Shown: piece by piece, positions 27,714-57,927 of the stretch
Numbering within the stretch: the first letter of the stretch is position 1
How the letters are laid out: every line of letters begins with the position of its first letter
Assembly: GCA_002256385.1 (NCBI GenBank)
Contig: NKJD01000014.1
Location: forward strand, 17,794 to 81,793
Source of the DNA: Flavobacterium sp. BFFFF2
GTDB taxonomy: Bacteria; Bacteroidota; Bacteroidia; Flavobacteriales; Flavobacteriaceae
DNA length: 64,000 bases
Direction: 5' to 3'
Program-made: the position numbers and the translations under genes
The notes under the pieces: generated by a model
Databases searched by the model: none
The model's input: only the letters and a program-made list of their open reading frames with translations
Told to the model about the DNA's origin: nothing

Positions 27714-27767
27714 TGTTAAAAAAATACTACTTTTGACTTTTTTATTCACTAATTTAAATAATCAGAT

Positions 27768-28787
27768 ATCATAACAATTAAAAAAATAGCAGCATTGGCA
27801 GGGGTATCTACTGGTACCGTTGATCGAATCATTCACAGCCGAGGTCAGGTTTCGCAAGAAAACATTGACAAGGTAAATGCTATTATTAAGTCAAGTGGGT
27901 ACAAAAAAAACATCTTTGCTAGTAATTTGGCATTTAAAAAGAAGTTTAAATTTGGGGTGTTCATACCAAAAGCCTCTGGCCTCGATTATTGGGAAATGCC
28001 TATCAAAGGCATTCATAAAGCGGAAACAGAACTCTTGAATTATGGGGTTCAATTGGTGTATTTTTACTATCCATTTACATTAGAAGGATTTCAAAAAGCT
28101 GCTCAAACTGTGCTAGATGCAGACATAGACGGCTTGTTATTTGCCCCTATATTTTTTGAATCTTCCAAATTATTTTTGACCAATTGCCAACAAAAAGGAT
28201 GGCCAGTAATTATGATCGATTCTCAGTTAGAGGGATTCAATCAGGCTTATATTGGACAAAATGCATTCCAAAGTGGATTTTTAGCAGGAAAATTAGCGTC
28301 TATTGGGTTGGCGCCCAGTAGCAAAATTATGATTGTAAAAATTGCACGTGATATTGATAGTACATCTACTTTTCAACAAAGAACCAGAGGGTTTTACGAT
28401 TACTTTTCACAATTAAAGAATGCGAACCAGTTTGAATTAATTGAAACCATTATTAGGGATGAAGATAATGCATTTAACATCAGCGAATTCAGTGATGTTA
28501 GTTCCTTATTTGTTCCCAATTCCAGGGCTTATTTGGTAGCAGAAGCCATTCAAAAATCGGGTAATTTACCCATTCGATTGGTAGGATTTGATTTATTACC
28601 TCAAAATTTAGCCTATCTGAAATCAGGCAATATTGACTTTTTAATTAATCAAAAACCAGAGGAACAAGGATACCAAGGCATACAATATCTTTATAAGACT
28701 GTAGTGCTCAAAGAGTCGGTTACTTCGTTACAATTTATGCCGTTAGATATTATAGTAAGCGAGAATTGTGCCTTCACACAATTCTAA
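27768..28787 (+). CDS. LacI-family transcriptional regulator (non-canonical start ATC/ATA; next TTG at 27795)
   Basis: Frame reads ITIKKIAALAGVSTGTVDRIIHSRGQVSQENIDKVNAII (LacI HTH) followed by a periplasmic-binding-protein-like domain. Confidence 0.85.
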   Translation: MITIKKIAALAGVSTGTVDRIIHSRGQVSQENIDKVNAIIKSSGYKKNIFASNLAFKKKFKFGVFIPKASGLDYWEMPIKGIHKAETELLNYGVQLVYFYYPFTLEGFQKAAQTVLDADIDGLLFAPIFFESSKLFLTNCQQKGWPVIMIDSQLEGFNQAYIGQNAFQSGFLAGKLASIGLAPSSKIMIVKIARDIDSTSTFQQRTRGFYDYFSQLKNANQFELIETIIRDEDNAFNISEFSDVSSLFVPNSRAYLVAEAIQKSGNLPIRLVGFDLLPQNLAYLKSGNIDFLINQKPEEQGYQGIQYLYKTVVLKESVTSLQFMPLDIIVSENCAFTQF

Positions 28788-29026: not shown

Positions 29027-29034
29027 TATATTTG
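29027..29034 (+). promoter_or_regulatory. Bacteroidota-type -7 element upstream of the first T9SS gene
   Basis: TATATTTG with TTG about 19 bp upstream (29005-29007), ending 5 bp before the operator. Confidence 0.55.
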
Positions 29035-29039
29035 TCGTG

Positions 29040-29055
29040 CCGTGTTCGTACACGG
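29040..29055. promoter_or_regulatory. Candidate LacI-type operator 1
   Basis: Palindrome CCGTGTTCGTACACGG. Confidence 0.75.
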
Positions 29056-29186
29056 TGTTTTTATTTGCTATTTAAAAATTAATTAATACAACGTATAGCA
29101 TTACCAATAATTAGTGTATGAGATTTGCACGGTGTGTATCTGAAAACTGATGATTTTAAAATTTAAAAATTAAAAATAATCCAAAT

Positions 29187-32100
29187 ATGAAAACAAAATT
29201 ACTACTAACAATTACCAACAAATGTTTGATTGCAATTTCGTTTTTTGCATTCATCCTCATCAATGCAACAGGTGCATTTGCGCAAGTCACTGTTTTTTCT
29301 GATGATTTTAATAGGTCAAATACTTCTCCTACAATCCCGTCAGGAGGTACACCAAGTGTATCTTACACCTCTACCACCTCTGGTCCCAACGCCACCATCA
29401 CTTTGTTGGCATCGGATGCGGTTGATTTCAGAATTAAAATGACTAATGGTGGTGCATCAACTTCTACTACGCCAGCAGCATCTGGAAAAGACATCATCAT
29501 GAGTTCGCTTGCTGGAATTCCTGGTTACAACCCAATTTTAAATTCAAATACAGGTTTGGTAACATGGGCATTTAATATGAAACACAACAAGCAATCGGGG
29601 TCAACTTTGTCTGGTTTTGATGTAGATAAATATGGAGTAGCTACCATTTTGACTTGTAACAATTCCAATCCATTGGCAACAAGCGCAAATGGTTTTGCAG
29701 TAGTAATGGGTGGCATCAATACCATGAATACGTACGATTTGGTATATTTTTCAGGTGGTTTAGCGGCTTCTGCGAATTTGACTACCATTATTCAGGGAAT
29801 TTCCTTAACGTCATTTAAAGATATTGTTAGCATTAAAGTAACTTACAACCCAGCAACTGGAAAATGGAACATGTTCCAAAAAGATGAAGGTAGTATTTCT
29901 ACGACCACGGCTTTTCCAGATCCTTATTCTATTGCAGTAGCTGGAATAGGTGAAGTTTCAACACCAACAAATGCAGCAAGTGCCGTTACGGCTTCTGCGG
30001 CAAATTTTGGTTTCTTATTTAATCACAAAACGGAAGGTAGCAATTCATTTTACGCCGACAATTTTAAAGTAGTAGTAGGTGCCATTTCTTTATCCAATTT
30101 CTATTTAGAATCTAATGCTGACTGTACCGATCTTTCAAAATGGTGGAGTGCTGCAAATGGTACGGGCTCACATCCAATTAACTTTACCAATGACGGTCAA
30201 ATTTTTAATATTTTTAATGCGGGTGCCAGTATTTCAACTGATTGGAATTTGAGTGGCGCAGGTAGTGTAGTTAATTTGGGTGATGGCACGGCAGCAAACA
30301 GCATGTTAATTGGTGTTAGTGGTGCATTAATTGGTAAAATTAACGTAAGTACCAATGCTACGTTGCGTATTGAAAATTTAATCGTGCCATCTTTAAATAT
30401 TATTCAAAATGGTTCAACGGTAGAATTTGCTGGGGCTGATACACAAGGGGTGCCAAGCGCCACTTATGGCAACCTTTCTATTTATACAATAGGTAATGGT
30501 GCAACGGCACAAGGAAGTGTAACCGTTAATGGAAACCTACATATTGAAACGGGAGCTATTTTCTCGATGAGTACCTATAAATTGTTAGGTATTAATTCAA
30601 TGTCGGGTGCTGGTTCACTAAAAACCAAATACTCTTTTACAGATGCATTACCTGCGGGTAATACTTGGCCTTTTGATGTGTACTACAATTATACAAGTAA
30701 CAATACAACGCAAACTGTTGCGTTGGGAAGCTATAATAACCTTGATTTAACAGGTGGACCACGCAAATTACCCAATGATTTTAGTGTATCTGGCGTATAT
30801 AACCCTGGTGTAGATCCATTAACTGTTGCTAATACTATCGATTTTAATGGTACAGCTTCTCAGATTGTTCCAGCTGCTCAATATTTTAACATTGTGGTTA
30901 GTAATCCAGTAGGTGCCGTAGCTAACGGTGTCGTTTTAGTGGGAGGTGACATTACGGGTAATAACCGTTTTGATGCGAGTGCTGCGACCATTAAATACAA
31001 CAGCGCGGCTTCAAATCAATTAATTTCTGCCAACAGCTTTGCAAATAATATGGTTAAAAATTTAATCATCAATAATACATTTGGCGTTGCGCTGCAATCA
31101 GATGTAAAAGTATCTGGTTTGCTTACTTTGCAAGCTGGTGCTTTGACAACATCTCCATCAGTGTTAACTTTGGTTTCAAATTCAAATGGCACAGCAGCCG
31201 TTGAAGGAGTTGACGGCACTGTTTATACTGGATCTATAATTGGTTCTGTTAAAGTGGAACGTTTCTTAAATTCTGCTCAACGTGGCTGGAATTTATTTGG
31301 AAGCCCAATTTTAGATCCAATTACATTTGCCAATCTATCCGCTCAAAGTACTACACCATTTGATATTACTTATACAAATCCATCATCAAAAAGATTAAAC
31401 AATACTACTTGGAGTCCTGTAACTACTGATACTGAAACATGGTCATTTGATAGTGGAATTGCTTTATTTAATCGAGGTGTGGCTGGTGAAGGATTTCAAG
31501 GAAATTACACAAATGGAGGTCCTTCAAATGTTACCGTTTCTCTTTCTGGTGGGTTAAATCTTGCTCAACAATCTATAACTACTACTTCTGGTCAGTTTTA
31601 TTTAGTAGCCAACCCGTTTGCAGCACCAATTAGTTTATCAGCTGTTATGCAATCATCAACAGGTTTAGATGGGGCCGTTTATATTTACGATCCAACTGCC
31701 AATAGCCCAATTAATTTGCAAACTATGGCTGGTGGATTTATGACAGCGATGCCTTCAGGTGCTCCGGGTGACCCAACAGATGTGGTAATTCCATCATTAG
31801 GTGCATTTATAGTTAAAGCTACTTCTAGTGGTTCAGTGAACGTTCCTGTAGCTTCTATTTACACTGGGTTGATTACTCCAAATACATCATTAACTGTTAG
31901 TACCATTCCAGCAGCAATTGGCCAAGATCCCGATGCGCAATTTATGGATGTGTCAACTTTTGGTTCAAAAAAATACCGTGTGTTCCCTAATCCAACTGCT
32001 GGTCTAGTTAATTTTGAAAGTACTTCTGACATCCAGTATGTTGAAGTGGTAAATATGTTAGGTCAAATTATTGCTACAAATAAACCACAGTCTACAAGTA

Positions 32101-32195
32101 GTCAAATTGATACGACGAGTTGGTTAAGTGGCACCTATTTAGTAAAATTAGTTTCTGAGGAAGGTACAGAAAGTGTAAAACTTATTAAAAAGTAG
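29187..32195 (+). CDS. Large T9SS type A sorting-domain surface protein
   Basis: Signal peptide; C-terminal KYRVFPNPTAGLVNFES...YLVKLVSEEGTESVKLIKK. Confidence 0.88.
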   Translation: MKTKLLLTITNKCLIAISFFAFILINATGAFAQVTVFSDDFNRSNTSPTIPSGGTPSVSYTSTTSGPNATITLLASDAVDFRIKMTNGGASTSTTPAASGKDIIMSSLAGIPGYNPILNSNTGLVTWAFNMKHNKQSGSTLSGFDVDKYGVATILTCNNSNPLATSANGFAVVMGGINTMNTYDLVYFSGGLAASANLTTIIQGISLTSFKDIVSIKVTYNPATGKWNMFQKDEGSISTTTAFPDPYSIAVAGIGEVSTPTNAASAVTASAANFGFLFNHKTEGSNSFYADNFKVVVGAISLSNFYLESNADCTDLSKWWSAANGTGSHPINFTNDGQIFNIFNAGASISTDWNLSGAGSVVNLGDGTAANSMLIGVSGALIGKINVSTNATLRIENLIVPSLNIIQNGSTVEFAGADTQGVPSATYGNLSIYTIGNGATAQGSVTVNGNLHIETGAIFSMSTYKLLGINSMSGAGSLKTKYSFTDALPAGNTWPFDVYYNYTSNNTTQTVALGSYNNLDLTGGPRKLPNDFSVSGVYNPGVDPLTVANTIDFNGTASQIVPAAQYFNIVVSNPVGAVANGVVLVGGDITGNNRFDASAATIKYNSAASNQLISANSFANNMVKNLIINNTFGVALQSDVKVSGLLTLQAGALTTSPSVLTLVSNSNGTAAVEGVDGTVYTGSIIGSVKVERFLNSAQRGWNLFGSPILDPITFANLSAQSTTPFDITYTNPSSKRLNNTTWSPVTTDTETWSFDSGIALFNRGVAGEGFQGNYTNGGPSNVTVSLSGGLNLAQQSITTTSGQFYLVANPFAAPISLSAVMQSSTGLDGAVYIYDPTANSPINLQTMAGGFMTAMPSGAPGDPTDVVIPSLGAFIVKATSSGSVNVPVASIYTGLITPNTSLTVSTIPAAIGQDPDAQFMDVSTFGSKKYRVFPNPTAGLVNFESTSDIQYVEVVNMLGQIIATNKPQSTSSQIDTTSWLSGTYLVKLVSEEGTESVKLIKK

Positions 32196-32240
32196 TTTTT
32201 TAGTTAATTAAAGTAGTTTTTCTTTGTTTGTTTAGTTATG

Positions 32241-32267
32241 ACCTTAGGTGCTTTTGGCACCTAAGGT
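32241..32267 (+). terminator. Intercistronic hairpin (terminator/attenuator candidate)
   Basis: ACCTTAGGTGC-ttttg-GCACCTAAGGT followed by T/A-rich ttattttaatttt. Confidence 0.6.
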
Positions 32268-32296
32268 TTATTTTAATTTTAAATTTTTCTTACTAC

Positions 32297-34300
32297 ATGT
32301 ACACTCGGGTTCGATTGTTTTGCTTAATTATTGTATTGTTCACTATACAATCTACTCATGCTATATCATATTACATTGATTCTGCGGCTGGTAATGACAG
32401 CAATAATGGTACAACATTGACAACAGCTTGGAAGAATATAACCAAATTAAACACACTTACTTTAACAGCTGGAACTAAAGTGTTTTTAAGGTGTGGCAGT
32501 GTGTGGAACGGACAACAATTAAAATTTTCAGGTTCAGGAAGCAGTCTGTTTCCAATTGTAATTGATCAGTATGGAACTGGTGCAAAACCTATTTTGAATG
32601 GGAATGGTTTGTTTGGAAGTACTTCTACTACTATCAATGATGCAAACAAACAAGGGGTAATCTATTTGTACAACCAAGATTACATTGAAATTAATAATTT
32701 AGAAATCACCAATTACCCACCGTTAACACTTCCCGCTACCAATCCGGATTCTTTATTTTTTATAGGATTATTTGGCAACGGAAATAACCCCAAAGGTGCT
32801 GATAGACGCGGGATTATGGTAGCTGTTAAAGACAAAGTTAATTCTTCAACTAACAGTAAAGTCTGCAATCATATATATTTTAAAAACATAGATATTCATC
32901 ATGTTAAAGGACAACTTGGTACTTCTGAAACGGTATTCAATGGAGCCATTCCGAAACAAACAGGTGGCATTTATTTTGTTGTTTTAAATGAGTCAGCAGG
33001 AAGTGATTCCCGTTTTAATGATTTATTAGTTGAAAATTGTACCATTGCTTATTGTGAAAATATTGGTATTGCACTAGATAATGAAGACAATGTGTATTAT
33101 CCTGGTGGAACTGAGTACGCTAATTGGTTCAAAAGACGCTTCACCAATGTGAACATTAAAAGCAACGTGATTCATCACATTGGTAAAAATGCGATGATTA
33201 TTCGCTGCACCGATGAAACAGGTTTAATTGAACGGAATGTTTGTTATGAAACGGCATTGGGAACTACTGGTAATACCATGTTTACCGCACGAGCAAAAGG
33301 AACTGTATTTCAGTATAATGAAGGTTCTTTTAATAGAGCTGCCACCCAGCAAATTGATCCTGGAAATATTGATGGTTGTATGTATGATCCAGATTTTGGT
33401 AGCATTGGTGTTATTTTTCAGTACAGTTACAGCCATGATAATTCCCATGGTATTTATTGGGGTTGCAATACTCGTTCGTCAAGTAATAATACCTCAGGCA
33501 TTCCAGATCCCGAAGATGTTGGTTGTACATTACGGTACTGTATCAGCCAAAATGACAAGGGTAATTTAGTTTACTTTAATTACTCATCCGCTGGAAATGA
33601 AATTTACAACAATGTATTTTATATCAAATCGGGCTTAAGCCCAACCATCATAAAAGAAAACAGTGCCAACAGACATACCTATAATTTTTATAATAATATC
33701 ATTTACAACATAGGCACTGGTTCTTATAATTTTGGCAATGATGTGAATTACCCACAAACAAGAACCATTCAAAACAATGTTTTTTATGGCTACCACCACA
33801 GCGCAGAGCCAGCCGATGTGGCAAAAATTACGCAAAATCCTCAATTTGTAAGCCCAGGCAGCGGAACCACTGGATTAAGTTCATTAGATGGGTATAAATT
33901 ATTAAGTACTTCTCCTGTTTTGACAAATGGAAAAATCATAGTAAGTAACGGCGGCAAAGATTTTTATGGAACAACACTTCCTACAACAGCGCCGTGTCGC
34001 GGTGTATATCAAGGTACAGGCGTTTCATTAGATATTTCGTATTTTAATTCAGCGGAAAATGATATCGTTTTATATCCAAACCCCGTAAATGAGGGAATCA
34101 TAAATGTCAAAATTCCACAACATCTTGATTTAATTACTGAATTATCAATTATTAACGTATTAGGACAGGAACTGTTTCAAATTCCTATTTCAAATAAGGA
34201 AGCCCAAATTCAATTGCCTAGTAATTTAAATGGCACTTTCTTCATTCAGTTTAAAAATGGCATTGAATCAATCACAAAAAGAATAATTGTTAATCCTTAA
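32297..34300 (+). CDS. Right-handed parallel beta-helix (pectate-lyase-like) T9SS-sorted protein
   Basis: SYYIDSAAGNDSNNGTTLTTAWKNITKLN start of beta-helix, many N/I/Y-rich rungs, C-terminal YPNPVNEGIINVKIP...RIIVNP; start chosen downstream of the hairpin. Confidence 0.82.
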   Translation: MYTRVRLFCLIIVLFTIQSTHAISYYIDSAAGNDSNNGTTLTTAWKNITKLNTLTLTAGTKVFLRCGSVWNGQQLKFSGSGSSLFPIVIDQYGTGAKPILNGNGLFGSTSTTINDANKQGVIYLYNQDYIEINNLEITNYPPLTLPATNPDSLFFIGLFGNGNNPKGADRRGIMVAVKDKVNSSTNSKVCNHIYFKNIDIHHVKGQLGTSETVFNGAIPKQTGGIYFVVLNESAGSDSRFNDLLVENCTIAYCENIGIALDNEDNVYYPGGTEYANWFKRRFTNVNIKSNVIHHIGKNAMIIRCTDETGLIERNVCYETALGTTGNTMFTARAKGTVFQYNEGSFNRAATQQIDPGNIDGCMYDPDFGSIGVIFQYSYSHDNSHGIYWGCNTRSSSNNTSGIPDPEDVGCTLRYCISQNDKGNLVYFNYSSAGNEIYNNVFYIKSGLSPTIIKENSANRHTYNFYNNIIYNIGTGSYNFGNDVNYPQTRTIQNNVFYGYHHSAEPADVAKITQNPQFVSPGSGTTGLSSLDGYKLLSTSPVLTNGKIIVSNGGKDFYGTTLPTTAPCRGVYQGTGVSLDISYFNSAENDIVLYPNPVNEGIINVKIPQHLDLITELSIINVLGQELFQIPISNKEAQIQLPSNLNGTFFIQFKNGIESITKRIIVNP

Positions 34301-34318
34301 TACTTTTTTTAATTTTAT

Positions 34319-34334
34319 CCGTGTACGCACACGT
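34319..34334. promoter_or_regulatory. Candidate LacI-type operator 2
   Basis: CCGTGTACGCACACGT, 27 bp before the ATG of the next gene. Confidence 0.75.
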
Positions 34335-34360
34335 TTAGTAACTAAACCATTTTATAAATT

Positions 34361-37300
34361 ATGAAAACAAACAAACAACTCGTTCACCAATCATGGCAAA
34401 GGACCATGATGATTTGGTGCGGTTTATTGGGTATGATTTTTGGTTATGCTCAAACAACTTCTGTTAGTGTAACCACAGCAGGAACATCCACTTGGACATG
34501 TCCCCCTGGTGTAACCAGCATAAACATTGAATCATGGGGCGGCGGCGGCGGCGGTTGCGGAACATCAAATTCCGCTTCTAGATCGGCTGGCGGTGGTGCT
34601 GGTGGTGCTTATGTGAAAGATATCAACATTGCTGTGACCCCTGGGGCCACCTATACTGTAGTAGTAGGAGCTGCTGGAGCTGGTGGGGTGGGTAATCCTT
34701 CTACAGGTGCTCCTGGCGCAGGTGGTTTCACTTCATTTACAAGAAACTCCGATAGTGTAATTTTAGTTAAATCGGTTGGAGGTGCTGCAGGTGCTGCAGC
34801 AACTTCCACTACAGGAGGAGCTGGGGGAGTAGGTTCTACTAGTGGAAATGTTCTTTCGGGTGTTACCGGGTCTTTAAGCTATAAAGGAGGCGATGGCGGC
34901 ACTGGAATAAATGGCGTTCCTGGGACGGGAAGTTCTGGTACAGCTGGCACGGCTGCTGCTGGTGGCGGAGCAGGTGGAAGCAACGGAAATGGATCGGGTA
35001 GAACAGCTGGAACTGGAGGCGGCGCTGGTGCAACTGCATTAACAGCTGGGACGAGTGGAAGTGGAACTGCTGGATCTGCACCAGGTGGTGGCGGTGGTGG
35101 CGGTATATCTGCTGCTGCGTCTGCTAAAAATGGCGGTGCAGGCGGTGCTGGTAAAATCACCATATCGTATGCTACACCTGCCAATCCTACCTTAACCACT
35201 TCGGTTTCTACAATGAGTTTAGCTGCTGCCTCTGGAACAACTCCAAGTGCACAGACATTTACAGTGAGTGCTACATTATTAACAGATGTGGTCACTATTT
35301 CTACAGCGACAACTAATTACTTAGAAATTTCTAAAGATAATACCACTTTTTCAAACAGTGTGTCTATAACCAACCCATCTGATGGAACTTTAGGGAATAC
35401 GACCATCTATGTGCGTTTAAAATCTGGTTTAAGCTTGGTGAATGCCTCAGAAAATTTGACTGTAGCTTCAACCAATGCTACTTCAAAAACGGTTGCAGTG
35501 AGCTTTGTAGTTTATAAAAATTATTATTATGGGGGTTCAGGTGATATTTCCTCAGTTTCTAATTGGTGGACTAATACTAATGGAACAGGAAGCAATCCTA
35601 CCAATTTTACAGCAGATGGACAATTCTTTAACATCATAACCAATGCGGCTAGTTCAGGAACAGGCTGGGCAGTTGGTACAGGTTCAAAAATTATTTTAGG
35701 TGCCAGCAATGTGGGTCCAGTTACACTTACGATTTCAAATGGGGCTCCTATTACCGGCCCATTAGATGTATCAGCAGCTTCATCAGGTTCCAATGTAATT
35801 AGCATTCAACATGACATTTTACATTCAACTACATTAACCACATTTACAAACCCAACGTGGGGAACCATTGACCCAAGTACAATTATCGAATTTTCAGGTA
35901 CTACCAATGCAACCCTTGGAGGAACCAATAATTTATTCAACAAGACGGTTAAAACCATTCGTTTGGTAAATAATGCCGTTGGTAAAATGAACGGTGTTGC
36001 AAACAACATACCGACATTGACTACGGAATTAAACATTGGAGCTGGTTGCTCTTTTTATACAGGTCAAAACTCATTAAGTTTTATCAATATTGCAAGTGGA
36101 GGAACAGTGGCCGTAAATGGCACACTGTATACTGAGAAAACCACAGGTTACCTAAGTAATGATGCAACCGCTTCAGCTACTTCGGGGGCTATAAATTTTG
36201 TAGGCACAATTTCCATTAGTTTCGGAACCAATGGTATTGTTGAATATGGTCGTTTTTCGTCAACAACAGCGCAAACGATTACACCACGAACCGATTATCA
36301 AAACCTTACCATCGGTGGTTTGGATTCAGGAAAAACATTTACTGGGGTTACTACAATTGGTGGAAAGTTAAATATCAATTATTATACCGTATCGGGTAAT
36401 CGTGCTATCACTGCAACGGGTGCCATTACCGCTGCTGAATTGGTTTTCAATGCGCCTGCATTGCAAACAGTTTCAACCACTATTATGCCATTTTTGTCAA
36501 ATGTAACGGCACCTATTACATTTAAAAATGCCACTGGTGTTCAATTGGGTTCAGCAGATGCATTTCCAAATGGCTTAGCTTACAACTTAGCAGGTGGATT
36601 ATTGAAAACAGGTGCTACTGCTGGTTTTTCAGATGTTTTAGGTACATTAAATGTATCTGATAACTCAACCATTTCTTTTGGGACTGGCGACCACAGTTTA
36701 CAATTTGCTAGTTCATCAGCTGTTTCTTGGACTGCTGGAAAAACATTAACTGTTACGGGATGGACTGGTTCACTTGGTCAAAGTGGTACTGCTGGAAAAT
36801 TATTTTTCGGTTCATCAAATACAGGTTTAACTTCAGGTCAATTGGCTCAAATTAGCTTTTCAAATTTCCCAACCGCATCAGCTATTCAGTTAAGTACTGG
36901 TGAAGTGGTGCCGCAATGTGCCAATCCAACAAGTGGCGGTACAATTACTGGAACAACAACCATTTGTAATGGTCAAACGCCTTCAACTTTTGGAAGCAGC
37001 AGTCTTCCAAGTGGTCAAATTGGCAATGCTAGTTTGGAATACCAATGGCAAATGTCTTTGAATAATTCAACATTTTCAGATATTTCTGGTGCCAATGCTA
37101 CAACATACAGCCCAGGTTCATTGAGTGCAACTACTTATTACCTTCGTTTATCACGTGTTGGTTGCCAAGCAGATTGGTCTGGCGCAACGGCATCGAATAC
37201 GCTGACCATAACTGTAAATACGACATCAGCGCCTTCGGCTGCATCATCGCAGTCATTTTGTACGGGTGCTACAGTAGCCCAATTAGCTGCTACGGGTAGT

Positions 37301-39280
37301 TCTTTGGCATGGTATGCAGCAAGCACAGGTGGTTCAGCATTAGCAAGTACTGACATTTTAAGTTCAGGAAACTACTACGTTTCACAAACCCAAAATAGCT
37401 GTGAAAGTACACGAACAACAGTATCAGTTACTGTTAATTTTACGGCAGCTCCAGCTGCTTCTAGTCAATTATATTGTGTTGGTTCAACAGTTGCACAATT
37501 ATTAGCAACAGGTACGGCATTAAAATGGTATGCTGGCGCAAGTGATGCATCACCTCTTGCAAGTACTGCCGCTTTAAGTTCAGCGACTTATTATGTATCT
37601 CAAACATTGGATACCTGCGAAAGTACAAGAACAGCCGTTACTGTAACCATTCAAAATACAGGTGTCCCAACGGCATTTGAAAATTGGTTAGCACCTGCTT
37701 CTACAGTAGCACAATTAGTAGCAACTGGATCTTCATTGAAATGGTATACTTCAAACGTATCAAATAGCCCATTAGCTGGCATAACTGCTGTGTCTTCTGG
37801 TACCTATTATGTTTCACAAACTATCTTAGGGTGCGAAAGCAACAAGATTCCAGTTTCAGTTACAGTCTATTCTACGGGGGGTTTAGTGCCATCAATTTCT
37901 GCGGCTTTGTGCGGAACTACTTTGTCAACTATTTGGACTAGTATTCCATGTAGTTCAGTAGTTGGGGCCAACTTGTATCATTTTGAAATTTCAAATGGAT
38001 CACAAAAAGTAATTTACGAATCAACAAGTAATTCATTCCAGCTAACTTCTGTTTCTGGTGGGGTTAATTTTGGAACTACTTATTCTATTCGAGTTGCCGC
38101 TAGAGTAGGAGCCAATTGGTCAAACTTTGGATCAGCTTGTGCTATTACAACGCCAGCTTCTCCTGCACCAACTCAGATTAGTACTTCAAGTTGTGGCGTA
38201 ACTTTAGCCAATTTTGAAACAAATATTTATTGTGGCCAACCATTTGGTGCTACTGGATACCGTTTTCAAGTAAGCAACGGTGCGTATTCTGAAACAATTG
38301 ATCGACCAACCAACTCATTTAATTTTGGTCAATTAACAACCTTGCCAAGTTTTAGTACAACGTACAGCGTTCGTGTTGCAGTACAATACAACGGCGCTTA
38401 TGGCAGCTATGGAAATGCTTGTTTTGTGACTACGCCGTCGGCACCAGCGCCAACGCAATTACTTGCTTCGCAATGTGGAACGACTTTAAGTAGCATTTAC
38501 GGGGCCTTATATTGTGGTAAACCAATTGGTGCAGAAGGCTACCGTTTTGAAGTAACAAGCACAGGAGGCTCTACCACTGTAGATCGCAGCACGAACAACT
38601 TTAACTTGATGATGATTAGTGGGGGTGCTGCATACAGCACGACTTACTCCGTGAGAGTAGCTGTATTAGCCAGTGGGATTTATGGCGCTTTTGGCCCTAG
38701 TTGTAGCGTTACAACGCCTGCAGCTTCTTCTTCTTTATCAACCATGTTAAACTGCGGTGCGCAAGCAACCAACAAATGGACAGCACTTTACAGCTCACAG
38801 GTCCTTTATGCTACCCAGTATAAATATGAATTAACAAATGGTGGTCAACTTTTTGAAATTACAAATACACGTAATAATTTCCAATTTGGTTCTTTTGTAG
38901 GATGGACAACCAACACTGTTTATTCAGTGAAAGTAGCAGTGATGATTAACGGAACTTGGCAACCTTACGGAACGTCATGTTCTATAACAAGTCCAGCTTC
39001 ATTTGCTCGTCATAATAGTGAAACCGAAGCTATTTCATGGACGGTTAAGTGTTTCCCGAATCCAAGTGAGAACTATTTTAGCTTGAATGGTGCTGGATTC
39101 AATCAGGAACCAATTCATTTGCAAAGTTTTGATTTAACTGGAAAATGTATTGATGACCAAACGATAGATGCGGCTCAAGTGGAGAATGTAGCATTTGGCA
39201 GCTCTTGGAATTCTGGTATTTATGTAATATATATTACCCAAGGTGAAGAACAATCAGTTCAAAAACTGATCAAAAAGTAA
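34361..39280 (+). CDS. Giant glycine-rich, Ig-like/FN3-like repeat T9SS surface protein (1639 aa)
   Basis: Gly-rich N-domain (GGGGGGCGTSNSASRSAGGGAGGAYV), three Ig-like repeats (VAQLxATGSSLxWY...YYVSQT), four about 95-aa repeats (CGxTLxxI...YRFxVSNG...YSVRVAV), C-terminal sorting domain. Confidence 0.88.
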   Translation: MKTNKQLVHQSWQRTMMIWCGLLGMIFGYAQTTSVSVTTAGTSTWTCPPGVTSINIESWGGGGGGCGTSNSASRSAGGGAGGAYVKDINIAVTPGATYTVVVGAAGAGGVGNPSTGAPGAGGFTSFTRNSDSVILVKSVGGAAGAAATSTTGGAGGVGSTSGNVLSGVTGSLSYKGGDGGTGINGVPGTGSSGTAGTAAAGGGAGGSNGNGSGRTAGTGGGAGATALTAGTSGSGTAGSAPGGGGGGGISAAASAKNGGAGGAGKITISYATPANPTLTTSVSTMSLAAASGTTPSAQTFTVSATLLTDVVTISTATTNYLEISKDNTTFSNSVSITNPSDGTLGNTTIYVRLKSGLSLVNASENLTVASTNATSKTVAVSFVVYKNYYYGGSGDISSVSNWWTNTNGTGSNPTNFTADGQFFNIITNAASSGTGWAVGTGSKIILGASNVGPVTLTISNGAPITGPLDVSAASSGSNVISIQHDILHSTTLTTFTNPTWGTIDPSTIIEFSGTTNATLGGTNNLFNKTVKTIRLVNNAVGKMNGVANNIPTLTTELNIGAGCSFYTGQNSLSFINIASGGTVAVNGTLYTEKTTGYLSNDATASATSGAINFVGTISISFGTNGIVEYGRFSSTTAQTITPRTDYQNLTIGGLDSGKTFTGVTTIGGKLNINYYTVSGNRAITATGAITAAELVFNAPALQTVSTTIMPFLSNVTAPITFKNATGVQLGSADAFPNGLAYNLAGGLLKTGATAGFSDVLGTLNVSDNSTISFGTGDHSLQFASSSAVSWTAGKTLTVTGWTGSLGQSGTAGKLFFGSSNTGLTSGQLAQISFSNFPTASAIQLSTGEVVPQCANPTSGGTITGTTTICNGQTPSTFGSSSLPSGQIGNASLEYQWQMSLNNSTFSDISGANATTYSPGSLSATTYYLRLSRVGCQADWSGATASNTLTITVNTTSAPSAASSQSFCTGATVAQLAATGSSLAWYAASTGGSALASTDILSSGNYYVSQTQNSCESTRTTVSVTVNFTAAPAASSQLYCVGSTVAQLLATGTALKWYAGASDASPLASTAALSSATYYVSQTLDTCESTRTAVTVTIQNTGVPTAFENWLAPASTVAQLVATGSSLKWYTSNVSNSPLAGITAVSSGTYYVSQTILGCESNKIPVSVTVYSTGGLVPSISAALCGTTLSTIWTSIPCSSVVGANLYHFEISNGSQKVIYESTSNSFQLTSVSGGVNFGTTYSIRVAARVGANWSNFGSACAITTPASPAPTQISTSSCGVTLANFETNIYCGQPFGATGYRFQVSNGAYSETIDRPTNSFNFGQLTTLPSFSTTYSVRVAVQYNGAYGSYGNACFVTTPSAPAPTQLLASQCGTTLSSIYGALYCGKPIGAEGYRFEVTSTGGSTTVDRSTNNFNLMMISGGAAYSTTYSVRVAVLASGIYGAFGPSCSVTTPAASSSLSTMLNCGAQATNKWTALYSSQVLYATQYKYELTNGGQLFEITNTRNNFQFGSFVGWTTNTVYSVKVAVMINGTWQPYGTSCSITSPASFARHNSETEAISWTVKCFPNPSENYFSLNGAGFNQEPIHLQSFDLTGKCIDDQTIDAAQVENVAFGSSWNSGIYVIYITQGEEQSVQKLIKK

Positions 39281-39302
39281 TAACCTTTATTACCAAATTA
39301 GT

Positions 39303-39340
39303 GAAACAGGCCGTTCAATTTGAATGGCCTGTTTTTTTTG
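39303..39340 (+). terminator. Rho-independent terminator
   Basis: aaACAGGCCgttcaatttgaatGGCCTGTtttttttt. Confidence 0.85.
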
Positions 39341-39527
39341 GTGATTTGTAGTAAGACGAAGTCAAAAGGATCATTGTCAATAACATACTTTCGATTTAGT
39401 CCGACTTGATCTACAATAGATATTATAGCAAAAAAAACTTCAATTTGTAAGGAATTCCACTTTTGCGATTCTAATAATTTTTTCTATATTTTTAAAATAA
39501 ATTCCTTTTTTTATAAACTAAAAAATA

Positions 39528-39535
39528 TATATTTG
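39528..39535 (+). promoter_or_regulatory. Bacteroidota-type -7 element upstream of kdgK
   Basis: TATATTTG ending 4 bp before operator 3; no clear -33 motif. Confidence 0.5.
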
Positions 39536-39539
39536 TCTA

Positions 39540-39555
39540 CCGTGTACGCACACGA
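39540..39555. promoter_or_regulatory. Candidate LacI-type operator 3
   Basis: CCGTGTACGCACACGA, 41 bp before the kdgK ATG. Confidence 0.75.
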
Positions 39556-39595: not shown

Positions 39596-40621
39596 ATGAG
39601 TCATAAAGTCGTTACGTTAGGAGAAATCATGTTAAGATTATCCACACCTGGTTTTGAGAGATTTGTTCAAGCTCAACAATTTGATGTAACTTATGGAGGT
39701 GGAGAAGCAAATGTGGCCGTTGCTTTAAGTAATTATGGGCTTCAGGGTACTTTTGTAACCAAAGTTCCATCTAACCCCATAGGTCAAGCAGCCATTAACC
39801 ACCTTAGAAGATTTGGGGTTGATACCCAATTTATTGCAAGAGGAGGGAGCCGTTTAGGTATTTACTTTTTAGAAACTGGTGCTTCCATGCGTGCCTCGCA
39901 GGTTGTCTATGACCGTGAAGGTGCGTCAATTGCGCAAGTGACGGCAGATGAATTTGATTTTGATCAAATTTTTGAAAATGCAAGTTGGTTCCATACAACC
40001 GGAATCACTCCTGCCTTAAGTGATGAAGCTGCTGCGCTTACTTTACAAGCATTAAAAGAAGCTAAGTCTAGAGGGATTACCACAAGTATCGATTTGAATT
40101 ATAGAAAAAAATTATGGTCAAAAGAAAAGGCCCAAAAAGTAATGACCGAATTGTGCCAATATGTGGATGTATGCATTGGAAATGAAGAAGATGCGGAAAC
40201 TACATTAGGGTTCAAAGCAGACGGAACAGATGTCACGAAAGGCGAGCTTCACCTTGAGGGGTACCGAAATGTTTTTGAACAAATGAAAGAAAAATTCGGA
40301 TTCAAAGTGATTGCTTCTTCATTGCGTGAAAGCCACAGTGCCAGCGACAATGGTTGGAGTGCTTTGGTGTATGACGGAACCGAATTTTACCACACCAAAT
40401 CCTATCAAGTTCGTATCGTTGACCGTGTTGGTAGCGGTGATTCATTTGCAAGTGGGCTCATCTATGGTTTGGTAACAGGTATGCCCATGCCAGAAGCAGC
40501 CGAATTTGGCGTAGCAGCAAGTGCATTAAAACATACCATTCCTGGTGATTTTAACCATGCAACCCTCAGTGAAATCAAAGATTTAATGAAAGGCGACGGC
40601 AGCGGCCGCGTGCAACGATAA
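39596..40621 (+). CDS. kdgK: 2-keto-3-deoxygluconate kinase (PfkB family)
   Basis: VTLGEIMLRLSTPGFERFVQA, GGGEANVAVALS, DRVGSGDSFASGLIYG. Confidence 0.9.
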   Translation: MSHKVVTLGEIMLRLSTPGFERFVQAQQFDVTYGGGEANVAVALSNYGLQGTFVTKVPSNPIGQAAINHLRRFGVDTQFIARGGSRLGIYFLETGASMRASQVVYDREGASIAQVTADEFDFDQIFENASWFHTTGITPALSDEAAALTLQALKEAKSRGITTSIDLNYRKKLWSKEKAQKVMTELCQYVDVCIGNEEDAETTLGFKADGTDVTKGELHLEGYRNVFEQMKEKFGFKVIASSLRESHSASDNGWSALVYDGTEFYHTKSYQVRIVDRVGSGDSFASGLIYGLVTGMPMPEAAEFGVAASALKHTIPGDFNHATLSEIKDLMKGDGSGRVQR

Positions 40622-40632
40622 TTCATTTTTAT

Positions 40633-41085
40633 ATGATAATAGATCATTTAGTTGAACTGAAAAAATATGACAACATGTTGCCTAAAATGGATGAAATCAT
40701 TCATTTTTTATCGCAACATGATTGGACAAATATAGCTGATGGTACACTTGATGCGCCTGAGGGAATGAAAGCTTTTGTTCAAACCTTGGAGGCGAAGACA
40801 GAAGAACAAAGCCTTGAAAAATTTGAGTGTCACGATCAATTTATTGATTTGCAATACCTTATTTCTGGTGTAGAAACATTTGCTTGGAAATCAAGAAAAA
40901 ACTGTGTAGTACCGAAAGGGGATTATAACATGGAAAAAGATGTTCGGTATTTTTCAGACGAACCAGACATCCATTTTTTGTTGCAACCGGGGCATTTTGC
41001 CATTTTTTACCCATCAGACGTGCATGCGCCAGCCATTGGAACAGGTACTTTGAAAAAACTCATTATTAAAATTCCAGTTATTTAA
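40633..41085 (+). CDS. YhcH/YjgK/YiaL family protein (sugar anomerase-like)
   Basis: FECHDQFIDLQYLISGVETFAW, FAIFYPSDVHAPAI. Confidence 0.88.
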   Translation: MIIDHLVELKKYDNMLPKMDEIIHFLSQHDWTNIADGTLDAPEGMKAFVQTLEAKTEEQSLEKFECHDQFIDLQYLISGVETFAWKSRKNCVVPKGDYNMEKDVRYFSDEPDIHFLLQPGHFAIFYPSDVHAPAIGTGTLKKLIIKIPVI

Positions 41086-41097
41086 TTTCCGACGCAT

Positions 41098-41763
41098 ATG
41101 TCAGCTCAAAATACTTTACAGATTATATTAAAACAAGGGGTATTGCCTCTATTTTATCATCCAGACATTGAAGTGTGCATGGGGGTTTTAGACGCCTTGT
41201 ATGCCGCCGGCATTCGGGCGGTGGAGTTTACCCACCGAGGCGATGCAGCAGAAACAAATTTTATTGCCATCAAAGCAAGTATACCAACTCGGTATCCAGA
41301 TTTAAATATCGGAATTGGCACTTTAAAAAACAGGGCGCAAGCACAAAAATATCATGAGTTAGGGGCTGATTTTTTAGTAAGTCCAGGTTTGGTTCCATCC
41401 ATTGCTCAATACGCGTCTGAGCACAATATGCTTTATACACCTGGATGTATGACACCGACTGAAATTATTCAAGCGGAAACCTTAGGAATCACTTTCGTAA
41501 AATTATTTCCAGGCAATTTACTAGGGCCGGAATTTGTAAGTGCCATTAAAGAATTGTTTAAAGGCATGTATTTTATGCCGACAGGCGGCGTAGACGCCAC
41601 AGATGAAAGTATTGGTTCTTGGTTTAAAGCAGGCGTTTCAGTGGTTGGCATGGGCAGTAAATTAATTAGTAAGTCAAGATTAGACCAACGAGATTATTCA
41701 TCAATTGAGCAATCGACTCGTCAGGTGATACAATGGGTGCAATCACATCAAGCCAACCGTTAA
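41098..41763 (+). CDS. kdgA: 2-dehydro-3-deoxy-phosphogluconate (KDPG) aldolase
   Basis: GIRAVEFTHRG, IGIGTLKNRAQA, YTPGCMTPTEI, VKLFPGNLLGPEFVSAIK, MPTGGVD. Confidence 0.93.
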   Translation: MSAQNTLQIILKQGVLPLFYHPDIEVCMGVLDALYAAGIRAVEFTHRGDAAETNFIAIKASIPTRYPDLNIGIGTLKNRAQAQKYHELGADFLVSPGLVPSIAQYASEHNMLYTPGCMTPTEIIQAETLGITFVKLFPGNLLGPEFVSAIKELFKGMYFMPTGGVDATDESIGSWFKAGVSVVGMGSKLISKSRLDQRDYSSIEQSTRQVIQWVQSHQANR

Positions 41764-41774
41764 TAGCTAAAAAC

Positions 41775-42587
41775 ATGATGGATTTATTCAATGTAACAGA
41801 CAGAGTAGTCATAATTACCGGAGGCACGGGCGTTTTGGGTAAACAAATGGCCCATACCTTGGTTTCCTGTGGTGCGCATGTGGTGCTGTTAGGGCGAAAT
41901 CTGGAAGACACAAAAGCGGTAGCTTCAACTATTACGGAAGGTCCGGGTACCGCTACTGGGATGTCTGCTAATGTGTTGGACGTTGATTCTCTGCAATTAG
42001 TCAAAGAACAAGTGTTGGCACGTTGGGGCAAAGTGGATGTCCTCATTAATGCGGCTGGGGGCAATATGCCTGGCGCAACAGTGGGTGAAGCACAACACTT
42101 TAAAGATGTATCAACCGATGACCTTCGAAAAGTAATTGATTTAAATATCATGGGTACGGTGTTACCTAGTCAAGCTTTTGCTGATGTTTTTGAAAATCAA
42201 AAACACGGTGTCATCATCAATATTTCGTCGGCTGCGGCGCAAAGACCACTCAGTAGGGTAGTAGGCTATGCGCTTTCAAAAGCCGCCATTGAAAATTTCA
42301 CTTTATGGTTAGCTGTTGAAATGGCGCATAAATATGGCGAAGGCATTCGGGTAAATGCCATTTCACCAGGCTTTTTTATTGGCGAACAAAACCGGGCATT
42401 GTTAACACAACCTGACGGTTCTTTAACGGCCCGCGGCCAAAAAATCATGGACATGACGCCCATGAATCGTTTTGGTTTACCTCAAGATTTATCAGGGGCT
42501 TTGTTGTATTTATGCAGCGATGCCTCTCAATTTGTAACTGGCACAATCCTCCGAGTAGATGGTGGGTTTGGTGCCTCAAGCATTTAA
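41775..42587 (+). CDS. uxuB: SDR-family D-mannonate oxidoreductase / fructuronate reductase
   Basis: VVIITGGTGVLGKQMA, NAAGGNMPG, SSAAAQRPLSRVVGYALSKAA; sits directly before uxuA. Start chosen at MMDLFNVTD. Confidence 0.82.
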   Translation: MMDLFNVTDRVVIITGGTGVLGKQMAHTLVSCGAHVVLLGRNLEDTKAVASTITEGPGTATGMSANVLDVDSLQLVKEQVLARWGKVDVLINAAGGNMPGATVGEAQHFKDVSTDDLRKVIDLNIMGTVLPSQAFADVFENQKHGVIINISSAAAQRPLSRVVGYALSKAAIENFTLWLAVEMAHKYGEGIRVNAISPGFFIGEQNRALLTQPDGSLTARGQKIMDMTPMNRFGLPQDLSGALLYLCSDASQFVTGTILRVDGGFGASSI

Positions 42588-42590
42588 AAT

Positions 42591-43802
42591 ATGGAACAAA
42601 CATGGCGTTGGTTTGGCCCTCAAGATCCTGTTTCATTGGCTGATGTACGTCAGGCTGGTGCAACGGGTGTGGTTTCGGCCTTACATCAAATTCCAAACGG
42701 AACTGTGTGGGAAATTGATGATATTCAGCAGCGTAAAAATACTATTGAATATGTAGATGGAAATACCAGCAACAAAAAGACAGGATTGGTTTGGTCGGTT
42801 GTTGAAAGCATCCCAGTTCATGAAGACATTAAAAAGAGGACTGGTAATTACAAACTTTATATAGAGAATTACAAAAAAAGCATTGCCCATTTGGCCGCCT
42901 GTGGCATTCATACGGTTTGTTATAATTTCATGCCGGTACTTGATTGGTCCAGAACTGATCTTGCTTATGAATTGCCCGACGGCTCAAAGGCCCTGCGTTT
43001 TGATATGAACCAATACCGAGCCTTTGATTTATTTATTTTAAAAAGACCGGCAGCTTTAGATACATATACAGCCGAACAAATTGAATCGGCCAAAAAATGT
43101 TTTGAATCGCTTTCGGCTGCAGATAAACTACAATTGCAACACAATATTTTGGCTGGCTTACCAGGATCAGAGGAAAGTTACAGCTTAGAAGCATTTTTGG
43201 CGGTTTTAGACGAGTACAAATTCATTGATCATGCGCAGTTGCAAGCCAATTTATTTGATTTTTTACGTGAAATTATACCCGTGGCAACGCAACATGGGGT
43301 TAAAATGGCCATTCATCCAGATGATCCGCCATTTCCGATTTTCGGACTTCCTCGCGTGGTAAGTACGGCGGCAGATTTACACGACTTATTTCATGCAGTT
43401 CCATCGATACATAATGGACTCACCTTTTGTACTGGATCGTTTGGCGTTCGCGCCGATAATGATTTGGTTCAAATGGTGGAAACCTTTGGCGACCGCATTC
43501 ATTTTATCCATTTGCGAAGCACCTTACGCGATGCGGAAGGAAACTTTTTTGAAGCAGACCATTTAGCGGGTGATGTTGATATGTATGGCGTCATTAAAGC
43601 CATTCACAAAGAAGAAATAACATCGTTAAGAAACATTCCTATGAGGCCCGATCACGGCCATCAGATGCTTGATGATTTAAATAAAAAAACAAATCCTGGT
43701 TATTCAGCCATCGGCCGTTTGCGCGGCTTGGCTGAATTGCGTGGATTGGAATTAGGAATAAAAAGAAGTTTCACCGAAACATTGAATTATGCCAAATCGT
43801 AG
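42591..43802 (+). CDS. uxuA: Mannonate dehydratase
   Basis: [57 protein letters not shown]. Confidence 0.95.
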
Positions 43803-45207
43803 TTTTATAACAGAAGATTTTTTGCTTCATTCTGAGACCGCCAAAAGGCTGTATCATGACTATGCTAAAAACCAACCCATTATTGATTATCATTGTCATT
43901 TATCAGCCAAAGACATAGCAGATGACCGCCAATTTGAAACAATAACGGCACTTTGGATTGATGGCGATCATTATAAATACCGTGCCATGCGAGCTCATGG
44001 GGTTGATGAATACTATATTACGGGCGCAGCCAGTCCTTTTGAAAAATTCATGAAATGGGCCGAAACAGTTCCTTATACACTTAGAAATCCGCTGTATCAT
44101 TGGACACATTTAGAGCTTAAAATGTATTTTGGCATTGATCAATTGTTAAACCCAGAAACAGCCGAAGACATATTTTATTTAACAAATAAAATGTTGCAAA
44201 CTCCCGAGTTTAGCGTTCGGTCATTGCTCAAAAAACGCCTTGTACAATTTGTTGGCACCACCGATGACCCGATTGATGATTTGGCGGATCACAAAAGATT
44301 GCAAGAGGAAGACCTTGATTTGATGGTCATGCCTTCATTCAGAGCCGACAAAGCAATGGCTATTGACCAACCAGAAGCATTTTGTAATTGGATTAATAAA
44401 TTGAGCGCTGTCACGCAAATGCCTATCTTGGAATGGCACGATTTGATTGATGCTTTAAAACAAAGACACAGCTATTTTCACCAAATGGGCTGCCGAATCT
44501 CCGATCATGGACTCGATCAGTTTTATGCCTTTGAATACACCGAAGATCAAGTGAATGCCATTTTTAAAGCTGGATTAAAAGGCGACGCCATTCAAAAATC
44601 AGAGGTAGATTGCTATAAATCTGCGGTCTTGCATCAGTTGGCCATCATGGATTTTGAAAAAGATTGGGTACAACAATATCATGTAGGTGCTTACCGCAAT
44701 GCCAATTCAAGAATGCATAGCCAATTGGGGCCTGACCAAGGATATGATACCATTGGCGATTCCTTGATTGGTGCTGATATGGCCCGTTTTTTTGATCGTC
44801 TAAATACCGAAAATAGATTGGGTAAAACCATCGTTTATAATTTAAATCCGCGCGATCATGAAATGGTGGCTGCTATGGTTGCTAATTTTAATGAAGGCCC
44901 TACTGCTGCTAAAATGCAATACGGCGCTGCTTGGTGGTTTTTAGACCAAAAAGATGGCATTCAAAGGCAACTTGATGTGTTGTCAAACTTTGGTTTATTG
45001 CCGCATTTTGTGGGCATGTTAACCGATTCCAGAAGTTTTATGTCGTTTCCAAGACACGATTACTTCCGACGCATTTTGTGCAATATGTTGGGTGCCGAAA
45101 TGGAACGCAATGAGCTGCCACAACAAATTCATTTAATTGGAAAGGTAGTCGAAGGAATTTGCTACACCAATGCTTTACACTATTTTAAACTGCCATTACA
45201 TGTCTAA
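43789..45207 (+). CDS. uxaC: Glucuronate isomerase
   Basis: [52 protein letters not shown]. Confidence 0.95.
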
Positions 45208-46540
45208 TAAACCATCAAATTATCGTTGGACCGTTTGCGGTTTGTTGTTTTTTGCAACAACCGTCAATTATTTGGACCGCCAAGTGCTCAGTTTGTTAGC
45301 GCCACAATTGACCGAGTCATTTCATTGGACCAATGCTGATTACGCGAACATCACGACCATTTTTCAGTTAGTGTATGCGTTATCGATGCTCGCAGCTGGC
45401 CGATTCATTGATCGGGTAGGTACCAAAAGAGGCTATCTGATTGCCATTAGTGTTTGGTCAATTGGTGCCATGATGCATGCTTTTTCAGAAGAAATGGGCG
45501 CAGCAGCATTGCCATTACTCGGTTTGGTTGGCTTGTATGCCGTTCCTGCCTCGGTGTTGGGATTTATGATTTCAAGAGCGGTGCTTGGATTGGGAGAGGC
45601 CGGAAATTTTCCTGCAGCGATCAAAGTAACTGCCGAACATTTTGAACCAAAAGAAAGAGCTTTTGCAACAGGAATTTTTAATTCAGGCGCCAATATTGGA
45701 GCCATTTTAGCACCACTTACGGTGCCATGGATGGCTGAATTTTGGGGTTGGCAAACCGCTTTTATTTTAGTTGGTGCGGTCGGTTTTATATGGATCTTCT
45801 TTTGGCAAATTATGTATAAACCAGCTGTACAATCTACTGCTGAATCTACTGCTGTTGAGTCTATTTCTGAATCAGACCAGCAAGTAGCTGATGCGAATAC
45901 ACCATCTACTGGGGTTTTAAAATCAACGGCTGCATGGGCATTTATTGCGGGAAAATTTTTCACCGATGGGGTGTGGTGGTTTTTCTTGTTTTGGTTGCCA
46001 AAATATTTAGATGCCCAATACCAAATGAAAGGCACTGAGATTATTACACCATTAATTGTATTATACAGTTTAACCATGGTGGGCAGTATTGGTGGCGGTT
46101 GGTTGCCCTCCTTATTTATTAAAAAAGGATATACAACGCTTCGCGCCAGAACCGTATCAATGGGTGGCATTGCTATTTTACCGTTGCTCGTATTGTTGGC
46201 GCAACCATTAGGAGGAATTAGTTACTGGGTTCCTGTATTGTGTATAGGCTTTGGTGCTGCAGCGCACCAAGCTTGGTCAGCTAATTTGTACACGTTGGTT
46301 TCTGACTTATTTCCTAAAAATAAAATCGCACGCATCGTTGGAATTGGCGGTATGGCAGGCGGTTTAGGAAGTATTCTACTCACCCAAATTGCGGGTAAAG
46401 TATTTGATTATTACGACGCTCAAAACAATATATCGTTGGGTTATACTTACATATTTATATATTGTGCCATTGCATATATTGGTGCTTGGTTCTGCATTCG
46501 TATGTTACTGCGACAACAATTAAAAAATGCCATTAATTAA
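45200..46540 (+). CDS. MFS hexuronate transporter (ExuT-like)
   Basis: RWTVCGLLFFATTVNYLDRQVLSLLAPQL, 12-TM MFS; overlaps the end of uxaC. Confidence 0.88.
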   Translation: MSNKPSNYRWTVCGLLFFATTVNYLDRQVLSLLAPQLTESFHWTNADYANITTIFQLVYALSMLAAGRFIDRVGTKRGYLIAISVWSIGAMMHAFSEEMGAAALPLLGLVGLYAVPASVLGFMISRAVLGLGEAGNFPAAIKVTAEHFEPKERAFATGIFNSGANIGAILAPLTVPWMAEFWGWQTAFILVGAVGFIWIFFWQIMYKPAVQSTAESTAVESISESDQQVADANTPSTGVLKSTAAWAFIAGKFFTDGVWWFFLFWLPKYLDAQYQMKGTEIITPLIVLYSLTMVGSIGGGWLPSLFIKKGYTTLRARTVSMGGIAILPLLVLLAQPLGGISYWVPVLCIGFGAAAHQAWSANLYTLVSDLFPKNKIARIVGIGGMAGGLGSILLTQIAGKVFDYYDAQNNISLGYTYIFIYCAIAYIGAWFCIRMLLRQQLKNAIN

Positions 46541-49599: not shown

Positions 49600-49617
49600 T
49601 TATTAAAAAATACTCAG

Positions 49618-51549: not shown

Positions 51550-51562
51550 TTTTATTAAAACC

Positions 51563-53713: not shown

Positions 53714-53719
53714 GGTGCG

Positions 53720-57915: not shown

Positions 57916-57927
57916 AACTTGTAATAA

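Follow-up and report, generated by a model that had tools for sequence, protein, structure and literature searches.

Uronate utilization in Bacteroides is served by LacI-family regulators, namely KdgR (BT0487), UxaR (BT0824), UxmR (BT3613) and UxuR (BT1434), and the regulons of KdgR and UxmR have been noted to reach periplasmic or extracellular proteins (PMC3878776, PMC4052901). LacI-family operators are even palindromes whose central CG is the norm and hallmark of the family, and autoregulation has been found for 72% of the LacI-family transcription factors studied (PMC4052901). Here we describe a comparable system in Flavobacterium sp. BFFFF2, in a stretch of 64,000 nucleotides (contig NKJD01000014.1 of assembly GCA_002256385.1, positions 17,794 to 81,793 of the forward strand; the window) where three 16-bp palindromes precede genes for secreted proteins and for uronate catabolism, close to a gene for a LacI-family regulator. 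We assign a probability of about 0.83 to the reading that these palindromes are the operators of the adjacent regulator, a KdgR/UxuR-like repressor of glucuronate and 2-keto-3-deoxygluconate (KDG) catabolism that would start from an AUC codon and be kept scarce. The Bacteroides regulators are the nearest described kind, likened here by description, in that family, phylum (Bacteroidota), local glucuronate/galacturonate/KDG regulons and palindromic operators agree; the nearest Bacteroides-labelled match to the window regulator, however, is 38% identical (L141) and falls outside its subfamily on the tree. A LacI-type uronate regulon is probably of an ordinary kind in itself, and the unusual point would be a repressor made from AUC.

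Weak start codons are known in several bacterial regulatory genes. The gene for translation initiation factor 3 (IF3), infC, has near-cognate starts (AUU in Escherichia coli, ATC in Streptomyces) and is a case of IF3 autoregulation, and the GTC start of Streptomyces sigR has been proved experimentally to be repressed by IF3 (PMC5472188). The AUA start of ccpN in Staphylococcus aureus reaches about 10% of the AUG level when the medium is poor and as much as 30% when it is rich (PMC13009471). In E. coli, lacI starts with GTG, which increases the basal expression of the operon and makes for better adaptation to lactose (PMC11445065). The window regulator resembles each of these in part. Like infC, it lacks an ATG, GTG or TTG start and has a conserved AUH codon, and the infC of the genus, which appears to start with ATA, shares the element TTTAACTTAAA in the same register; unlike infC, it would encode a sugar-pathway repressor and not IF3, and its sensitivity to IF3 is one that we only infer. 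With sigR it has in common a conserved non-canonical start in a transcription regulator, limiting synthesis as proved for sigR and predicted here, but sigR is an oxidative-stress sigma factor with an extended Shine-Dalgarno sequence and GTC rather than AUH. The ccpN gene of S. aureus and Bacillus subtilis likewise encodes a repressor of metabolism and has a near-cognate start that is conserved, yet it belongs to an unrelated family and relies on an extended Shine-Dalgarno sequence; Bacteroidota ribosomes do not use Shine-Dalgarno pairing (PMC9976891). The lacI gene, a LacI-family repressor with a weak start, is the milder case, as its GTG, unlike AUC, AUU or AUA, is a standard alternative start accepted by gene finders.

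Results

The gene immediately upstream of the palindromes encodes a LacI-family protein, as the preliminary description of the window had proposed. It combines an N-terminal LacI-type helix-turn-helix (HTH; PF00356, 44.0 bits against a cut-off of 27, profile positions 1-46) with a periplasmic-binding-protein-like effector domain (PF13407, E 3e-29), and its best match in the PDB is 3gbv, a putative LacI-family regulator. Close homologues were found only in Flavobacterium, in a Lutibacter metagenome-assembled genome (MAG) and in unplaced Flavobacteriales and Bacteroidetes MAGs, and the subfamily is supported on the tree (100/99).

The three palindromes stand where that description had placed them, and domain matches agree that they precede the first protein of the type IX secretion system (T9SS), the giant glycine-rich T9SS protein and kdgK. 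The pattern CCGTGTNCGNACACG matches the window at 29040, 34319 and 39540 and nowhere besides; 100 shuffles gave no match, and allowing two mismatches revealed no fourth place in the window. All three sites are even palindromes with an NCGN centre, which is kept in relatives. A genome-wide scan had been named as a test of the regulon, with many hits at unrelated loci as the outcome that would speak against it. In the draft assembly (118 contigs, 3,715,988 bases) the core CGTGTNCGNACACG has exactly three copies, all of them at the window sites, against an expectation of 0.07 from base composition, and a reversed-pattern control gave none. Operator 2 is placed in a 60-bp gap between two genes, and operator 3 heads a tightly packed run that extends from the KDG-kinase-like gene to the second gene of the major facilitator superfamily (MFS).

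The link between sites and regulator, an inference in the preliminary description, is supported by comparison across 250 genomes of the genus (relatives named Flavobacterium; orthologs at E <= 1e-60, exact motif). A regulator ortholog is found in 64 and the motif in 62, with both in 61, the regulator alone in three, the motif alone in one and neither in 185; of the three with the regulator alone, two carry a one-mismatch site in the expected gap. The position is shared as well: in most relatives the motif is found 103-109 bp ahead of the regulator start, and directly on its other side begins a divergent kdgK-yhcH-eda-uxuB-uxuA-uxaC-exuT operon, whole or in part. Operators before uronate and KDG catabolic genes across species are what a regulator of the KdgR/UxuR type would have. 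In two genomes (G236, G082) the motif precedes uxuB-uxuA (L094, L096) on a contig other than that of the regulator, which is what regulation in trans would call for. Additional sites, read by eye, lie beside a KduI/KduD-like pair (L090), at a pectinase-like gene preceding a uronate operon (L101) and before large secreted proteins (L089, L103), and in G235 a SusC gene, an MFS gene and a secreted beta-helix protein each have motif sites, the SusC and MFS genes being homologous to those of the window. The connection to T9SS is thus not confined to the window.

It might be argued that another transcription factor binds the sites and that the LacI-type gene is a mere neighbour. The regulator is not beside a perfect site in G236, G082 and, for its second copy, G088; in G201 the site is present and the ortholog absent; and the window regulator has no operator of its own. 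We nevertheless consider this very unlikely, since motif and regulator coincide in 61/62 motif genomes and 61/64 regulator genomes at a mostly constant distance, the symmetry and central CG of the site match the LacI family (PMC4052901), and no other transcription factor is among the genes identified in the conserved neighbourhood.

The sequences around the sites are in keeping with repression at the promoter. The -7 consensus of Flavobacterium johnsoniae is TAHHTTTG (PMC6847099), and the earlier observation that two palindromes follow such a box by 4-5 bp holds for operators 1 and 3 (Table 1). That the palindrome would lie over the transcription start is supported by the spacing in relatives, where 64 of 87 distinct exact sites have TAHHTTTG at a fixed distance in the tested span, where shuffled flanks lead one to expect 2.9. 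In 56/69 regulator-linked cases a box on the operon strand ends 7-9 bp ahead of the core, and in 26 cases a -7 box on the regulator strand abuts it. If the G of the box is taken as -5, the operator would cover or touch +1 of both promoters, an arrangement that suits repression by occlusion. The same spacing would place the palindrome at about +1 to +20 of the operon transcripts, where a 5-bp stem with a 4-nt loop is possible, and the palindromes might act as RNA, in the form of a 5'-end hairpin that protects the mRNA or tunes translation. Such a role is highly improbable: with the box abutting the core, the regulator transcript would hold only part of the palindrome; the presence of the palindrome tracks the regulator gene across genomes; the one-mismatch sites CGTGTACGTGCACG and CGTGCACGTACACG break one arm with no compensating change, the invariance of the site set being partly built in by the exact search; and 20 regulator leaders, the majority with the site inside them, give an RNAalifold consensus that has no pairs and no conserved fold.

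The 5' end of the window regulator reads TAA TCA GAT ATC ATA ACA ATT AAA AAA ATA GCA, with no in-frame ATG, GTG or TTG ahead of the HTH. The start listed for this frame, TTG at 27795, drops the first eight HTH profile positions (9-46, 32.6 bits), whereas the ATC at 27768 gives the full profile match quoted above. In an alignment of 76 distinct subfamily genes, the window included, the aligned start (codon -6) is ATC in 60, ATT in nine, ATA in two and ATG in five, and is thus near-cognate in 71/76. ATG, GTG and TTG are missing from codons -15 to -4 in 70 of these genes, that of the window among them, while 26/27 outgroup paralogs from other genera do have one there. In some homologues the aligned position itself is a canonical start, namely ATG in the five orthologs and TTG, ATG or GTG in 9/27 paralogs. 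The neighbouring isoleucine codons behave differently (codon -5: ATA 66, ATT 9, ATG 1; codon -3: ATA 35, ATT 34, ATC 7), and ATC accounts for 18.5% of the isoleucine codons elsewhere in the subfamily regulator genes. The context is Kozak-like: relative to codon -6, adenine has a frequency of 0.74 at nucleotide -3, 0.86 at -6, 1.00 at -12 and 0.87 at -13, the four upstream positions at which adenine favours initiation in F. johnsoniae (PMC6847099). On the tree, the ATT label requires at least eight changes and ATG is limited to two small clades. Taken together, the alignment indicates that the regulator is probably translated from a near-cognate codon, AUC in the window and AUC, AUU or AUA in relatives. 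As gene finders accept only ATG, GTG and TTG, the first helix would be missing from their annotation of this repressor.

Two other causes were rejected: sequencing error, because the agreement extends over some 70 distinct genes from independent assemblies, and a frameshift from an upstream ATG, which is impossible in 55 of 70 genes. More broadly, the ATC start could be illusory and the true start canonical, either an upstream codon in another frame combined with a frameshift or a downstream GTG or TTG that leaves the HTH incomplete. Most sequences do contain a downstream GTG, TTG or ATG that gene finders would choose, and slippage could in principle occur on the A-rich AAAAAAA. Even so, a canonical start is unlikely, as 55/70 non-AUG genes have no ATG, GTG or TTG within 120 nt upstream, in any frame, reading into the gene, and the downstream candidates vary between species and lie within the HTH or past it. 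The entropy by codon position (0.34/0.20/1.27) shows the HTH region to be constrained at the protein level, and the ATG orthologs and several TTG, GTG or ATG paralogs begin exactly at the aligned codon. Loss of ATG could also be the mark of a pseudogene, with the regulator in decay; a second copy in G088 has an internal TAA, and in G272 only a degraded site stands beside the regulator. This is scarcely credible for a set of about 70 distinct genes that retain full-length frames, HTH, operators and the same near-cognate start, the third base of which has, on the tree, eight or more changes among C, T and A.

The infC gene of the genus offers a parallel. In 25/27 Flavobacterium genomes no ATG, GTG or TTG stands in frame ahead of the conserved core of IF3; the remaining two have only a TTG, which lies either a long way upstream or within the protein. 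In the 27 genomes, that of the window included, the codon aligned as the start is ATA, except for one ATC, and GCA comes next, so that Flavobacterium infC appears to be a case of the known near-cognate initiation of IF3. These infC loci are L186-L215, the window genome's own infC lying at G000:C78:65509-66012.

In many leaders of infC and of the regulator, TTTAACTTAAA occupies exactly positions -21 to -11. Three large genomes (16.6 Mb) contain ten matches to the pattern TTTAACTTAAA-N10-ATH; six of them are infC and the regulator, one each per genome, and the other four have no open frame behind them and are non-coding. A reversed control pattern is about as frequent (15 matches over the three genomes), which means that the element is not rare in itself and that it is the placement that deserves attention. 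None of 395 ATG-started open reading frames in the fetched loci has TTTAACTTAAA at -26 to -6; TTAACTTAAA is found in 40/71 near-cognate regulator orthologs, and the five ATG-started orthologs lack TTTAACTTAAA. In infC, the GTTTAA part of the element is probably the end of thrS with its stop codon, which would leave only CTTAAA free to vary, and the leaders compared share ancestry, which calls for caution regarding a shared element. We put forward tentatively, as an idea more doubtful than probable, that the repressor and infC share both the near-cognate start and TTTAACTTAAA, the latter as a leader signal for near-cognate initiation independent of Shine-Dalgarno pairing, and that free IF3, and with it the translational state of the cell, would govern how much repressor is made and how strongly its whole polysaccharide and uronate regulon is expressed at the basal level.

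Discussion

The combined results suggest a model in which a repressor dimer would occupy CCGTGT-NCGN-ACACGG over the transcription start, beside the TAHHTTTG -7 box, and block initiation. Release would be brought about by an intermediate of the uronate pathway, probably KDG or a uronate. A near-cognate start would keep repressor levels low, and with few repressor molecules present, basal uptake and catabolism may suffice to generate the inducer. By analogy with the systems described above, the weak start suggests repressor synthesis that is deliberately weak and possibly also sensitive to IF3, on which the supply of repressor would then probably depend.

Several observations weigh against this reading or parts of it. 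Operator 2 has no TAHHTTTG box or other recognisable promoter. The coincidence of regulator and motif has a Fisher p of 2e-53, computed from counts that are uncorrected for shared ancestry. The window regulator is the deepest member of the subfamily and sits on a long branch, so its specificity could differ, though its sites are identical to those of the relatives. No operator, with up to two mismatches, precedes the regulator gene in the window, as one does in most relatives; the autoregulation usual among them, a common trait of the family and not a strict requirement, seems to be absent here. As for the start codon, the AUA of codon -5 almost equals the AUC of codon -6 in conservation and could be the initiator. 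With codon -5 as the start, however, adenine at -12 and -13 reaches only 0.61 and 0.77, so that codon -6 fits somewhat better. Finally, the window gene has adenine at -12 and at none of -3, -6 and -13, and its leader keeps the element shared with infC only partly (TAATTTAAA).

If the model holds, the operators supply a ready-made regulon for the use of uronates and polysaccharides in Flavobacterium, and their motif is so rare that it can be carried over to other genomes; T9SS secretion would be tied to the catabolism of sugar acids in the cytoplasm, a link open to testing. Of wider interest than the operators is the start codon. The regulator and infC together allow a natural test of how near-cognate starts are chosen when the ribosome takes no account of Shine-Dalgarno pairing, and they raise the question whether weak starts are a general means of keeping sugar repressors scarce, as has been shown for the GTG of lacI (PMC11445065) and suggested for the AUA of ccpN (PMC13009471). 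In the open-licence literature we found no paper on the Flavobacterium regulator or its start codon, nor a description of the motif or of its coupling to T9SS proteins.

Neighbouring genes and minor observations

The features of the window are collected in Table 1. The polysaccharide locus continues the kdgK operon with gaps of at most 20 bp, some genes overlapping, and the predicted regulon comprises the T9SS proteins, uronate catabolism and, through the kdgK operon, the SusC/D-GH2-esterase locus.

Table 1. Regulatory sites and genes of the window (T9SS, type IX secretion system; KDPG, 2-keto-3-deoxy-6-phosphogluconate; SDR, short-chain dehydrogenase/reductase; GH, glycoside hydrolase family)
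Feature	Position	Strand	Basis or remark
Candidate -7 box of the regulator gene, TACTTTTG	27728..27735	+	matches TAHHTTTG; leader about 28 nt
LacI-family regulator (HTH_LacI + Peripla_BP_4), predicted start ATC 27768-27770	27768..28787	+	HTH profile; codon alignment over 76 relatives
-7 box of operator 1, TATATTTG	29027..29034	+	ends 5 bp before the site; a TTG some 19 bp further upstream resembles a -33 element
Operator 1 (predicted), CCGTGTTCGTACACGG	29040..29055	.	pattern match in window and genome
T9SS-secreted protein, 1002 aa, predicted target of operator 1	29187..32195	+	Por_Secre_tail
T9SS-secreted protein, about 671 aa	32285..34300	+	sequence similarity to lacto-N-biosidases of the 5gqc/7v6m type
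Operator 2 (predicted), CCGTGTACGCACACGT	34319..34334	.	pattern match in window and genome; no TAHHTTTG box found
Giant glycine-rich T9SS protein, 1639 aa, predicted target of operator 2	34361..39280	+	Gly_rich_2 + Por_Secre_tail
-7 box of operator 3, TATATTTG	39528..39535	+	ends 4 bp before the site
Operator 3 (predicted), CCGTGTACGCACACGA	39540..39555	.	pattern match in window and genome
Uronate catabolic operon: kdgK-like kinase, YhcH-family protein, KDPG aldolase (eda), SDR D-mannonate oxidoreductase (uxuB-like), uxuA, uxaC, MFS (exuT-like)	39596..46540	+	domain matches; same set behind the motif in relatives
Polysaccharide locus: SusC, SusD, GH50-like/SASA esterase, SASA esterase, GH2, MFS	46549..59112	+	domain and homology matches

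No separate kduI or kduD was identified in the window, which would fit the release of whole glucuronate rather than of lyase products. The GH2 enzyme resembles beta-glucuronidases and galactosidases and the esterase fusion resembles GH50 agarases; together with the lacto-N-biosidase-like protein, these likenesses do not settle the glycan substrate. The fusion itself, a GH50-like (beta-agarase-type) domain with a SASA acetylesterase (window 51563-53713), has counterparts of 64-65% identity in the loci of G235, G108 and G165. Those three genomes have a second, paralogous LacI-type regulator (46-48% identical) beside their SusC/D-GH2-T9SS locus (L104, L107, L110) and also retain the regulator of the uronate operon. 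Unlike there, a single regulator seems to serve both loci in the window.

Further perfect palindromes, CGTGTTCGAACACG with flanks TTC..GAA or CTC..GAG, were seen at L089:10591, L098:9894 and L099:16208. In G128 such a palindrome precedes a large T9SS-like secreted protein; another lies in G201, the genome without the regulator. The extra sites centred on TTCGAA in G128, G201 and G171 were considered as tRNA arms, an idea rejected as no tRNA was found. In G088, the second regulator copy (C29, L100:10896-11738), which has the internal TAA mentioned above, adjoins an intact uronate operon with its site, and a full copy is present on C84; the C29 copy looks like a decaying duplicate.

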